Source: Salegentibacter salarius
GTDB lineage: Bacteria > Bacteroidota > Bacteroidia > Flavobacteriales > Flavobacteriaceae
Assembly: GCF_900168265.1 (NCBI RefSeq)
Contig: NZ_FVZF01000018.1
Span: 1 to 64,000 of the forward strand
Direction of reading: 5' to 3'
Length of the DNA: 64,000 nucleotides
Part shown: piece by piece, positions 1-57,060 of the stretch
How positions within the stretch are numbered: position 1 is the first letter of the stretch
Layout of the letters: the number at the start of each line of letters is the position of its first letter
The notes under the pieces: generated by a model
Databases searched by the model: none
What the model saw: only the letters and a program-made list of their open reading frames with translations
Told to the model about the DNA's origin: nothing
Position numbers and translations under genes: made by a program

Positions 1-63
1 AGGTCTTAAATACTGCTTTGGCTTTCATTACATGAAAATACTAAAAACCAGAAAATAATACAA

Positions 64-91
64 CAAAAAAGGCTGCCTTTTCAGACAGCCT
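64..91 (-). terminator. Rho-independent terminator of the DegP-type protease gene
   Basis: On the minus strand a 9-bp stem (AGGCTGTCT with AGGCAGCCT, one T-G pair) closes a GAAA tetraloop at 70-91 and is followed by a run of T. It lies about 25 bases past the protease stop codon. Confidence 0.8.
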
Positions 92-116
92 CTTTATTGG
101 TTTTATGGCTTGATTT

Positions 117-8146: not shown

Positions 8147-8175
8147 CGTCATCCTGAACTTGTTTCAGGATCTAA
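8147..8175 (+). repeat. REP-like hairpin unit, TC/GA variant
   Basis: CGTCA foot, stem TCCTGAA with TTCAGGA, then TCTAA. The downstream bases to about 8225 look like a decayed inverted partner (TTAGAATCC, then TGAATTCGTGA). The unit lies in the 173-base gap between two convergent genes. Confidence 0.75.
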
Positions 8176-8290
8176 GGTGTGTAAAATTATTTTAGGTTAG
8201 AATCCCAAAGTGAATTCGTGATAAAGTCTGAAAAGAGTTCAGCCAGACGATATGTATCTTTGAATTTCTTCAAGTATTTTACATAATCAT

Positions 8291-8920: not shown

Positions 8921-8951
8921 GACCTCACAGGTTTCTAAAACCTGTGAGGTC
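8921..8951. repeat. Perfect 14-bp inverted repeat between YigZ and EamA genes
   Basis: GACCTCACAGGTTT, a 3-base loop, then AAACCTGTGAGGTC. It lies just past the EamA stop codon on the minus strand. No long T run follows on either strand, so a dispersed palindrome doing terminator or mRNA-end protection duty is more likely than a classical terminator. Confidence 0.7.
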
Positions 8952-20873: not shown

Positions 20874-20999
20874 AGACTGTCTGAAAAGTTTGGTTTCGTC
20901 AAGCTGAACTTGTTTCAGCTTCTAACATGTTTTGAATATCAACATTTTAGATTCTGAAATGAATTCAGAATGACGATTTAAATTCTTTTCAGACAGTCT
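20874..20999. repeat. REP pair inside a 15-bp outer inverted repeat
   Basis: The outer arms AGACTGTCTGAAAAG (20874-20888) and its exact complement (20985-20999) enclose two units: 20897-20925 (AAGCTGAA/TTCAGCTT) and the inverted 20947-20975 (ATTCTGAA/TTCAGAAT). TATTTTTT follows on the plus strand, so it may also end dapA transcription. No clear target duplication was seen. Confidence 0.8.
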
Positions 21000-24406: not shown

Positions 24407-24568
24407 ACTCGATAATCGGGGTTTAAAAGTTGAATATCCGTAAACAGTCATACTTTTAAAATTTAGACGTCACCCTGAACTGGTTTCAGAGCCTGCTCCG
24501 ATTTCTATTGGAGGTCTAAGTTGGGTAGGTACTATCGTGTTAGATGCTGAAACAAGTTCAGCATGACG
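24407..24568. repeat. Fragment of the 92-bp element plus a long-form REP pair
   Basis: The 350-base gap before recN holds ACTCGATAATCGGGGTTTAA (24407-24426). It also holds a long-form REP unit (24468-24519), with ACCCTGAA/TTCAGAG and an added hairpin CTCCGAT-TTCT-ATTGGAG. An inverted standard unit (24540-24568, ATGCTGAA/TTCAGCAT) follows. Nothing else recognisable lies in the gap. Confidence 0.75.
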
Positions 24569-27360: not shown

Positions 27361-27393
27361 TTCAGCGTGACGTTTTTTTTACGTCACGCTGAA
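27361..27393 (+). terminator. Terminator-like hairpin after fabI made of repeat sequence
   Basis: TTCAGCGTGACGT, seven T, ACGTCACGCTGAA: a 13-bp perfect stem 9 bases after the fabI stop. The left arm is half of a REP unit and the right arm is the start of the next full unit. Confidence 0.65.
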
Positions 27394-27786
27394 TTTATTT
27401 CAGAGTCTGATATGATTGGAACTCAACTCAACTTAGATTCTGAAACGAGTTCAGAATGACGAAAACCACCTTGCCGTCACGCTGAATTTATTTCAGCGTC
27501 TAACATGAAATGAAGTTATCTCGACTTAGACCTCCGGATAAAAATCGGAGCAGGCTCTGAAACCAGTTCAGGGTGACGTTTTGATTCACGTCATGCTGTT
27601 CCGAAGTAGGGATATTTCAGTGTGAAATTATCTTAGCTAAGACCCTGAAGTTTCTAAAGCCTGTTTAGCATCACAAAAAACACGTCATGCTTAACTTGTT
27701 TCAGCATCTAACGTGATTTAAAATTGTGCTGATCTTAGACCTCCGATAGAAATCGGAGCAGGCTCTGAAACAAGTTCAGGGTGACG
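27382..27786. repeat. Tandem array of four REP pairs
   Basis: The 481-base gap between fabI and the glycosyltransferase gene is nearly all repeat. Units are at 27382-27410, 27475-27503 and 27683-27711. Inverted partners are at 27433-27461 and, in long form with a CTCCGAT/ATCGGAG hairpin, 27526-27578 and 27735-27786. A decayed pair with an insertion lies at about 27589-27673. Stem variants are CG, TT, CC and TG. Confidence 0.8.
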
Positions 27787-32803: not shown

Positions 32804-32941
32804 CGTAGTGCTGAATTTATTTCAGCGCGAAGCGCGCCGTTCTATCGTCATGCTGAACTTGTTTCAGAGGACGTCATCCTGAACTTGTTTCAGGATCTAG
32901 GTTGTTAAGAAGTTAGATGCTGAAATAAATTCAGCATGACG
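32804..32941. repeat. Group of REP units before the large exported protein gene
   Basis: The 419-base gap holds four units: a decayed one from 32804 (CTGAATTTATTTCAG, then GCGCGAAGCGCGC), two in direct tandem (32846-32870 with TG and 32872-32899 with TC/GA stems) and one inverted (32913-32941, ATGCTGAA/TTCAGCAT). The remainder, 32942-33160, shows only the promoter box at 33055. Confidence 0.75.
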
Positions 32942-37852: not shown

Positions 37853-37959
37853 CTAGACCCTGAAATAAATTCAGGGTGACGTGTTACAGTTGAGTGATTA
37901 GAACAGCTTGCGTCCGGGTGGCAATTCACACGTCATGCTGAACTTGTTTCAGCATCTAA
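37853..37959. repeat. REP units in the 563-base gap before the L,D-transpeptidase
   Basis: An inverted unit (37853-37881, ACCCTGAA/TTCAGGGT read on the opposite strand) and a direct unit (37931-37959, ATGCTGAA/TTCAGCAT), here in tail-to-tail order. A decayed copy, AAGCTGAATTTACGGCATGC, lies at about 37811. Confidence 0.7.
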
Positions 37960-50626: not shown

Positions 50627-50653
50627 CAGGAATTTATTTCCTTTTGAATTAAG

Positions 50654-50820
50654 ACTGTCTAAAGTTTAATGTAGACTGTCTGAAAAGTTTTATAATTCGT
50701 CATTCTGAATTTATTTCAGAATCTAAGTTGCTAAGAATTTTAGAAGCTGAAACAAGTTCAGCTTGACGCAAGAAGGACTTTACAGATAGTTATAACATAC
50801 CAAACTTTAGACAGTTTTTT
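50654..50820. repeat. REP pair inside an outer inverted repeat ending in a T run
   Basis: Outer arms ACTGTCTAAAGTTT (50654-50667) and its exact complement (50802-50815), then TTTTTT. Inside are AGACTGTCTGAAAAG (50673-50687, identical to the arm at 20874), a unit at 50698-50726 (ATTCTGAA/TTCAGAAT) and an inverted unit at 50740-50768 (AAGCTGAA/TTCAGCTT). Likely also ends sucC transcription. It occupies most of the 315-base gap. Confidence 0.78.
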
Positions 50821-56921: not shown

Positions 56922-57060
56922 AAAAAAGCTTGCTTAAGAATATTGGTTTCGTCAAGCTGAACTTGTTTCAGCTTCTAATAGGATATCAATAATAATTTAA
57001 TTAGATCCTGAAACAAGTTCAGGATGACGTATAGAAAAATATTTTTCAGTCAGCTTTTTA
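56922..57060. repeat. REP pair with outer inverted repeat between hutI and the dehydrogenase
   Basis: Units at 56950-56978 (AAGCTGAA/TTCAGCTT) and inverted 57001-57029 (ATCCTGAA/TTCAGGAT). Imperfect outer arms, AAAAAGCTTGCTTAAGAATA and AATATTTTTCAGTCAGCTTT, enclose them. It lies just past the dehydrogenase stop on the minus strand. Confidence 0.75.

Follow-up and report, generated by a model that had tools for sequence, protein, structure and literature searches.

The 64,000-nt stretch of the Salegentibacter salarius genome analysed here (the window) carries two facing hairpins at positions 20874-20999, and the question that this locus raises is to which repeats they belong and which enzyme could spread them between genes. 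REPs are widespread bacterial repeats. Those with a GTAG foot have an enzyme, the RAYT, whereas those with a CGTC foot had none in the 2013 survey of Di Nocera, De Gregorio and Rocco, which, in its passages on this CGTC superfamily (families 1-4), describes the repeats as not associated with transposase genes and apparently without a dedicated transposase, and leaves open how they spread (PMC3733652). A compact and conserved nuclease of about 92 residues, which we find beside CGTC repeats in many phyla, makes the question of their spread directly testable and could reveal a new enzymatic mechanism by which non-coding DNA is moved or maintained.

The locus consists of two units with their tails inward, placed inside a perfect 15-bp inverted repeat, AGACTGTCTGAAAAG (20874-20888 / 20985-20999). 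The family to which they belong (Table 1) has the consensus CGTC-A-N1N2-CTGAA-(C/T)NN(G/A)T-TTCAG-N2'N1'-T-CTAA, with an 8-bp stem, a 5-nt loop and, as seen in 118 CGTC-tagged units, an apical pair inside the loop. The initial annotation of the window had counted about 24 copies, all between genes; the family is present, at a count of 22 when up to three mismatches are allowed (two of these units are degenerate) and of 21 with the exact CTGAA...TTCAG core, and none of the 21 units in the statistical set overlaps an ORF, with the ORF list covering 86.8% of the window. Collecting copies by pattern throughout the genome (3.33 Mb, 48 contigs), as had been proposed, yielded 171 strict copies, 86 forward and 85 reverse, and 0 copies of the reversed pattern used as a control in the same search. 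In 1.25 Mb of the genome we found 132 units, against 6 matches in one simulated sequence of second-order make-up. The hairpin family is confirmed as genuine and far above chance at the coordinates of Table 1. Rfam at gathering scores returned for the window one tRNA gene (RF00005, 60404-60477) and no match on the repeats.

Table 1. Positions of the repeat units and associated features in the window, and of the palindromes that accompany the Y1 gene (G000 is the window's own genome)
Feature	Position	Strand
CGTC unit (TC)	8147..8171	+
Degenerate CGTC unit (GG)	8225..8249	-
GACCTCACAGGT/ACCTGTGAGGTC palindromes, the two on C15 flanking the Y1 gene	window 8921-8951; G000 C15:153180-153210 and 153802-153832	
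Outer inverted-repeat arm AGACTGTCTGAAAAG, terminator-like stem	20874..20888	+
CGTC unit, N1N2 = AG, loop CTTGT	20897..20921	+
29-nt spacer, CTAA at start, TTAG at end	20922..20950	.
CGTC unit, N1N2 = TT, loop TTCAT, inverted partner of 20897	20951..20975	-
Outer arm CTTTTCAGACAGTCT, complement of 20874-20888	20985..20999	+
CGTC unit (CC), variant with extra inner hairpin	24468..24492	+
CGTC unit (TG)	24544..24568	-
CGTC unit (CG, imperfect)	27382..27406	+
CGTC unit (TT)	27437..27461	-
CGTC unit (CG)	27475..27499	+
CGTC unit (CC), inner-hairpin variant	27554..27578	-
CGTC unit (TG), one core mismatch	27683..27707	+
CGTC unit (CC), inner-hairpin variant	27762..27786	-
Degenerate unit, tag CGTA	32804..32828	+
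CGTC unit (TG, 3' arm broken)	32846..32870	+
CGTC unit (TC)	32872..32896	+
CGTC unit (TG)	32917..32941	-
CGTC unit (CC)	37857..37881	-
CGTC unit (TG)	37931..37955	+
Outer arm AGACTGTCTGAAAAG of the 50698 pair, nested within a second terminator-like stem	50673..50687	+
CGTC unit (TT)	50698..50722	+
CGTC unit (AG)	50744..50768	-
CGTC unit (AG)	56950..56974	+
CGTC unit (TC)	57005..57029	-

The foot had been annotated as GTCA. It is indeed other than GTAG, but it reads CGTC (118 of 132 units, with TGTC in 3), since the A that follows is already part of the stem and forms an A-T first pair in 103 of the 118 CGTC-tagged units; the tail is short and mostly CTAA. The second stem pair is T-A in 56 of these 118 units, A-T in 37 and C-G in 16, and N1N2 takes several values, as had been noted (TC 33, AG 32, TT 15, TG 11, CC 8, AC 4 and single others, in 107 well-paired units). 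The N1 pair is Watson-Crick in 110 of the 118 units, where 500 shuffles gave at most 63, the N2 pair in 100 (56 or fewer in shuffles) and the apical pair in 114 (82 or fewer), counts that are not equal to independent events because the N1N2 values form a handful of haplotypes; the remaining stem pairs scarcely vary and are therefore uninformative on covariation either way. This covariation, which the initial annotation had described, supports its view of a REP- or REPIN-like hairpin family whose folded form is maintained, and we propose that the stem bases co-vary because selection acts on the folded form.

The window repeats are a new member of the CGTC REP superfamily, and they usually occur as inverted pairs, in REPIN-like fashion. 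The superfamily is defined by an unpaired CGTC (or TGTC/CCTC) end, a stem of 8-9 bp and a loop of 4-5 nt (PMC3733652), and in the passages that describe it the same survey reports several features found here: the CGTC foot, 8-bp stem, 5-nt loop and intergenic location, pairs with CGTC outside (their HH), which are mostly heterodimers in families 2 and 3, and the occurrence of the superfamily in Bacteroidetes. The tail differs, being mostly CCA in the survey and CTAA here, as does the stem, where the first two positions are 'almost invariably' A and T in PMC3733652 whereas here the second pair varies. The survey's intragenic count excluded repeats inside hypothetical proteins shorter than 120 aa, and its repeats are described as being without transposase genes, whereas here such repeats flank GIY-YIG genes. 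The REPIN-RAYT system, in the account of Bertels and Rainey from 2011 (PMC3116915), likewise has an inverted REP doublet as its unit, an enzyme gene flanked by the same REP, and repeat and enzyme types that are matched, but its enzyme is the RAYT (Y1-HUH), whereas the candidate here is a GIY-YIG nuclease, and the foot of RAYT REPs is GTAG (as used in PMC3733652) rather than CGTC.

Pairing is the rule among these units: 101 of the 132 have a neighbour less than 200 nt away, and 47 of the 53 such pairs are inverted with CGTC outside, which bears out the earlier description of mostly inverted pairs. Three spacer classes are seen (about 12, 20-22 and 28-32 nt), and a variant has an extra inner hairpin (for example CTCCGATTTCTATCGGAG). 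Identical N1N2 types are joined in none of the 35 inverted pairs (of the 47) in which both stems are intact, where 7.5 would be expected and 0 of 5000 shuffles were as low; the pairs left out of this count include an AG unit with an imperfect AG partner. Heterodimers were reported in the 2013 survey without obvious explanation (PMC3733652). A matching outer stem encloses 19 of the 47 inverted pairs, against 12% with shuffled partners, several of these stems resemble intrinsic terminators, and 20 of 40 matches to the AGACTGTCTGAAAAG motif lie within 60 nt of a unit. A longer mobile element with AGACTGTCTGAAAAG ends was considered and set aside, since arms of one site resemble each other more than arms of different sites do (19/47 versus 12%), and we therefore tentatively read the arms as terminator stems around the pair. 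The contigs themselves end in a repeated IS-like element (window 1-95; contig ends L040, L078 and L092), presumably IS1182-like. At its end lies a terminator-like hairpin, GGCTGTCTGAAAAGGCAGCC, whose motif recurs in the arms that flank many pairs.

The enclosing stems (19 of 47 against 12% shuffled), the T-runs that follow some of them and the intergenic position of all 21 tested window units could be taken to mean that the units are maintained for stopping or shielding transcripts between genes. We regard such a function as an unlikely explanation, given that 28 of the 47 pairs lack an outer stem at that threshold, that copy number ranges from 0 to 213 within the genus, and that it leaves the nuclease association described below unexplained.

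The initial annotation had assigned the units to REP/BIME elements moved by a Y1-HUH transposase (RAYT) encoded in the genome. The architecture is RAYT-like, with a short foot, a hairpin and inverted pairs, the genome does have one Y1 gene, and across the 249 family genomes Y1 genes and units show a weak co-occurrence (odds ratio 2.0, p 0.024). The search for a Y1 gene flanked by the CGTC unit nevertheless ended elsewhere: the single PF01797 (Y1) match in the whole genome is bracketed on both sides by a different palindrome, GACCTCACAGGT...ACCTGTGAGGTC, and so goes with another repeat and not with the CGTC unit. The GACCTCACAGGT-loop-ACCTGTGAGGTC family occupies 23 places in the genome at up to three mismatches, one of them in the window, and is part of a second, separate palindrome-enzyme pair in the same genome. 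Y1 proteins of the Bacteroidetes subclass 2.6 are described in PMC6006769 as flanked by atypical secondary structures, to which the GACCT palindrome beside the Y1 gene L009 can be likened, whereas the motifs of L009 (NHFH, FQ and YIHLNP, by eye) look closer to subclass 2.1, listed there without REPs. Among 60 Y1 loci of the genus and family, 8 match the loose unit pattern and 2 were judged to have true units, both of them Y1 fragments at contig ends of a single genome (G252), with one unit about 125 nt away. Moreover, a genome of the same genus (G249) has 133 units and no Y1 match, and another genome (G258) has 0 units and 5 Y1 matches. Taken with the foreign palindrome beside the only Y1 gene, this makes a RAYT a very improbable enzyme for these units.

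A different gene was found at places in other genera where the pattern occurs as CGTC pairs 300-350 nt apart. Between those pairs lies an ORF of about 92 codons that encodes a GIY-YIG domain (Pfam PF01541, E 5e-17), and one further such gene (L192) came from a stretch of the related genome G256 that had been retrieved on other grounds. The window's own genome has two GIY-YIG genes amid CGTC units, at G000 C8:7881-8150 and C8:9348-9617, and the profile search of the genome gave no match on the window's contig. Probably, then, a GIY-YIG nuclease belongs to CGTC REPs in the way that RAYTs belong to GTAG REPs, and is encoded in this case elsewhere in the genome. The residues of the GIY-YIG site (Tyr, Gly, Arg and Glu) are invariant in the aligned homologues, and the predicted model (pLDDT 90.7) has UPF0213 and Slx1 as its nearest solved folds, with a modest best E of 1.4e-3. 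The sequence profile of the nuclease also matches UPF0213 chains; for UPF0213 and SLX1-type nucleases, the nearest in both profile and model fold, the extracts of PMC9071465 consulted mention no association with repeats, which is where the present proteins differ. NCBIfam gave weak matches below cut-off and PADLOC weak partial matches only.

The association of gene and repeat holds across phyla and is specific to the tag. Homologues were scanned with a profile of 18 proteins on genome contigs by protein similarity alone, and the best 80 of 571 confirmed loci were kept. Because most members of the profile are themselves neighbours of CGTC units, the scan is biased towards their nearest relatives; among GIY-YIG proteins at large the rate is certain to be below that of these 80 loci, which are the ones closest to a query that itself has CGTC units nearby. 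By record title they come from groups of Pseudomonadota, from Planctomycetes, Chloroflexi and others. A (C/T)GTC stem-loop lies within 300 nt of the gene in 69 of these best 80 loci and on both sides in 46, with CGTC itself at 53 and TGTC only at 16, compared with 163 of 2322 control placements away from the gene in the same loci (7.0%) and 43 of 361 neighbouring ORFs with any intergenic length (11.9%, Fisher p 8e-39). Unit density in the same set is 4.3/kb within 150 nt and 0.09-0.10 at 600-1800 nt, with 0.30, 0.13 and 0.13 in the farther bins; the density detector and the 300-nt locus detector differ slightly, and one locus (L367) passes the former only. When stem-loops near the gene were counted free of any tag, CGTC was the commonest tetranucleotide beside them (100 stem ends in 50 of the best 80 loci), followed by CTGG and ATGG, which we take to be the opposite side of those hairpins, and then by TGTC, while GTAG occurred 0 times and each of the other eleven orderings of the letters of CGTC at no more than 3 of the 80 loci. 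No unit was found within 300 nt at 11 of the 80 loci, at 4 of 16 plasmid loci and at 18 of 41 loci on viral contigs.

Among the plasmid loci (16 fetched of 33 records, near-duplicates skipped), a CGTC stem-loop lies within 350 nt of the gene in 12 of 16 cases, these 12 all being alpha-, beta- or gammaproteobacterial, and on both sides in 10, against 0.025 units per region in shuffled sequence. On a plasmid of Azospirillum lipoferum (L283) the GIY-YIG gene sits between sufB and sufC and is flanked on either side by a CGTC pair. One protein encoded in the window has six matches on plasmids, all of Persicobacter or Hymenobacter, two genera of Bacteroidota. On viral contigs (L379-L419) a CGTC/TGTC stem-loop lies within 300 nt of 23 of 41 nuclease loci; the element may travel with phages or prophages, or these contigs may hold host DNA.

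Closer to the window, a unit lies within 300 nt of all 7 high-scoring genes of the genus and of 6 of 23 low-scoring GIY-YIG loci. The high-scoring subfamily was cut at >=133 bits, a threshold set after seeing the gap to 121. Loci L100-L107, the first of the flavobacterial type, had been fetched for CGTC pairs 300-350 nt apart or for clusters, and six of them together with L192 make up profile A1; since these seven seed loci were selected on repeats, the counts for the family are also given without the seed genomes. A unit accompanies 26 of 27 loci in the family set, and 19 of 20 without the seven seeds. Locus L236 was scored on its neighbouring gene, which is the same gene as in L226, and its second gene (1501-1770) has units at 1349 and 1835. 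Across 249 genomes of the family, units are present in 27 of the 28 with the subfamily and in 35 of the 221 without it (p 6e-18); leaving out the seven seed genomes, 20 of 21 genomes with the subfamily have units (p 1e-13). Within the genus, the five genomes with the enzyme carry 213, 200, 197, 149 and 89 units and the ten others 0-133 (p 0.0035), so that copy number spans 0 to 213. Of the 18 genomes of the family that have 10 or more units, 5 lack the subfamily (G031, G084, G138, G164 and G179), and, in the genus, G249 has 133 units with no match to the enzyme and another genome 122 units with no close homologue; G249 and the five family genomes indicate that units persist without the enzyme. 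The enzyme genes of the five genomes of the genus share one conserved neighbourhood, which argues that the gene itself is not freely mobile there. In this respect they resemble single-copy RAYTs, which have moved little at the species level according to PMC3116915.

The stem type of the repeat differs between lineages and follows the enzyme clade. CTGAA-type units accompany enzymes in the family of the window and in Sphingomonadales, CCCGC-type units (4-nt loops) those of many Pseudomonadota, including a Neisseria locus, and GGGCTTGACCC types those of Rhizobiaceae; the CCCGC-type repeats of Neisseria are equated with dRS3 on the basis of the description in PMC3733652. Four repeat types placed on the enzyme tree require 9 changes, against 43.1 in shuffles, and three types within the alphaproteobacteria alone require 3 against 14.1; the tree has 104 rows, 95 columns and few well-supported branches, relatedness alone makes labels cluster, the repeat classes are our own, and loci without a unit, of class 'other' or long-loop, or on viral contigs were left out. 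The CTGAA enzymes of the window's family are 42.9% identical to the sphingomonad CTGAA enzymes and 40-41% to enzymes with other units, hence by sequence identity they appear scarcely closer to the former, which speaks against a simple story.

Association is not activity, and the gene could be a passenger, or the CGTC clusters its insertion hot spots, with no action on the repeats. The single neighbourhood of the enzyme locus within the genus and the persistence of units without the enzyme would both fit this. Passenger status is nonetheless quite unlikely in our view, since different repeat types flank the gene in distant lineages, each time in a tag-specific manner, and since the type follows the enzyme clade, to which shared ancestry adds some of the clustering. 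The association between GIY-YIG genes and CGTC repeats is well supported, and we found no description of it in the open-licence PMC literature (preprints not included), where a subscription paper or a preprint may hold one. From these sequence comparisons the GIY-YIG gene emerges as a strong candidate for the missing enzyme of the CGTC repeats.

How would such an enzyme work? GIY-YIG nucleases hydrolyse DNA and are not known to have a strand-transfer step, so a GIY-YIG nuclease could not transpose in the HUH manner. We infer instead that the protein recognises, cleaves and thereby mobilises the hairpin. During replication or when the DNA is supercoiled, the unit would extrude as a hairpin that bears the CGTC tag, the GIY-YIG protein would recognise foot and stem and nick there, and repair or template switching would then copy, delete or flip the pair, by which pairs could spread and persist between genes. 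It is an even call whether, beyond this, the CGTC REPs of Bacteroidota, Pseudomonadota and other phyla form a second mobile class of REPs, with a hairpin-cutting GIY-YIG enzyme in place of HUH, in which a nick with repair or template switching, and not covalent strand transfer, spreads the inverted pairs, and in which enzyme and cognate repeat stem evolve together.

Occupancy by units differs between related genomes. The relative G255, on average about 90.6% identical to the window's genome across long matches, offers 22 comparable sites, and at the window's 50698 site it has the outer terminator stem only and no pair. The nested inner arms of this site are present in G252, G256, G254 and the more distant G258, and absent from G249, G261 and G257, where single or fused remnants only are found; from these alignments we lean towards G255 having lost the insert rather than never having had it. 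Across relatives this one terminator loop (window 50650-50810) is either empty or occupied by a pair, by one unit alone or by a fused remnant, as would be expected if loops of terminators tolerated or attracted insertions of this kind. At two sites the pair is reversed in place between the same arms, 20897-20975 in G256 and 56950-57029 in G261 (L117), as judged by eye from type order and flanks. These reversals fit homing-like repair or template switching and could also arise without the enzyme.

Pairs reversed between the same arms are also what hairpin processing could leave, and the nuclease may possibly, with a lesser but real chance, be no mobiliser at all, acting as a structure-specific resolvase on the hairpins or cruciforms that REPs form and so keeping replication going. 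Its fold, nearest to UPF0213 and Slx1, points the same way, SLX1 being a structure-selective endonuclease, and the most promiscuous one of the GIY-YIG superfamily according to PMC9071465. Such a role sits poorly with genomes of the same genus that hold 133 or 122 units without a close homologue, and the position of the gene between units is that expected of a mobile system. The enzyme locus of G256 was considered as a filled version of the window at 32.8 kb and rejected, as its flanking genes do not match those of the window. In G164 (L108 and L109), successive CGTC units share one orientation and are spaced about 139-163 nt apart, which resembles a tandem array.
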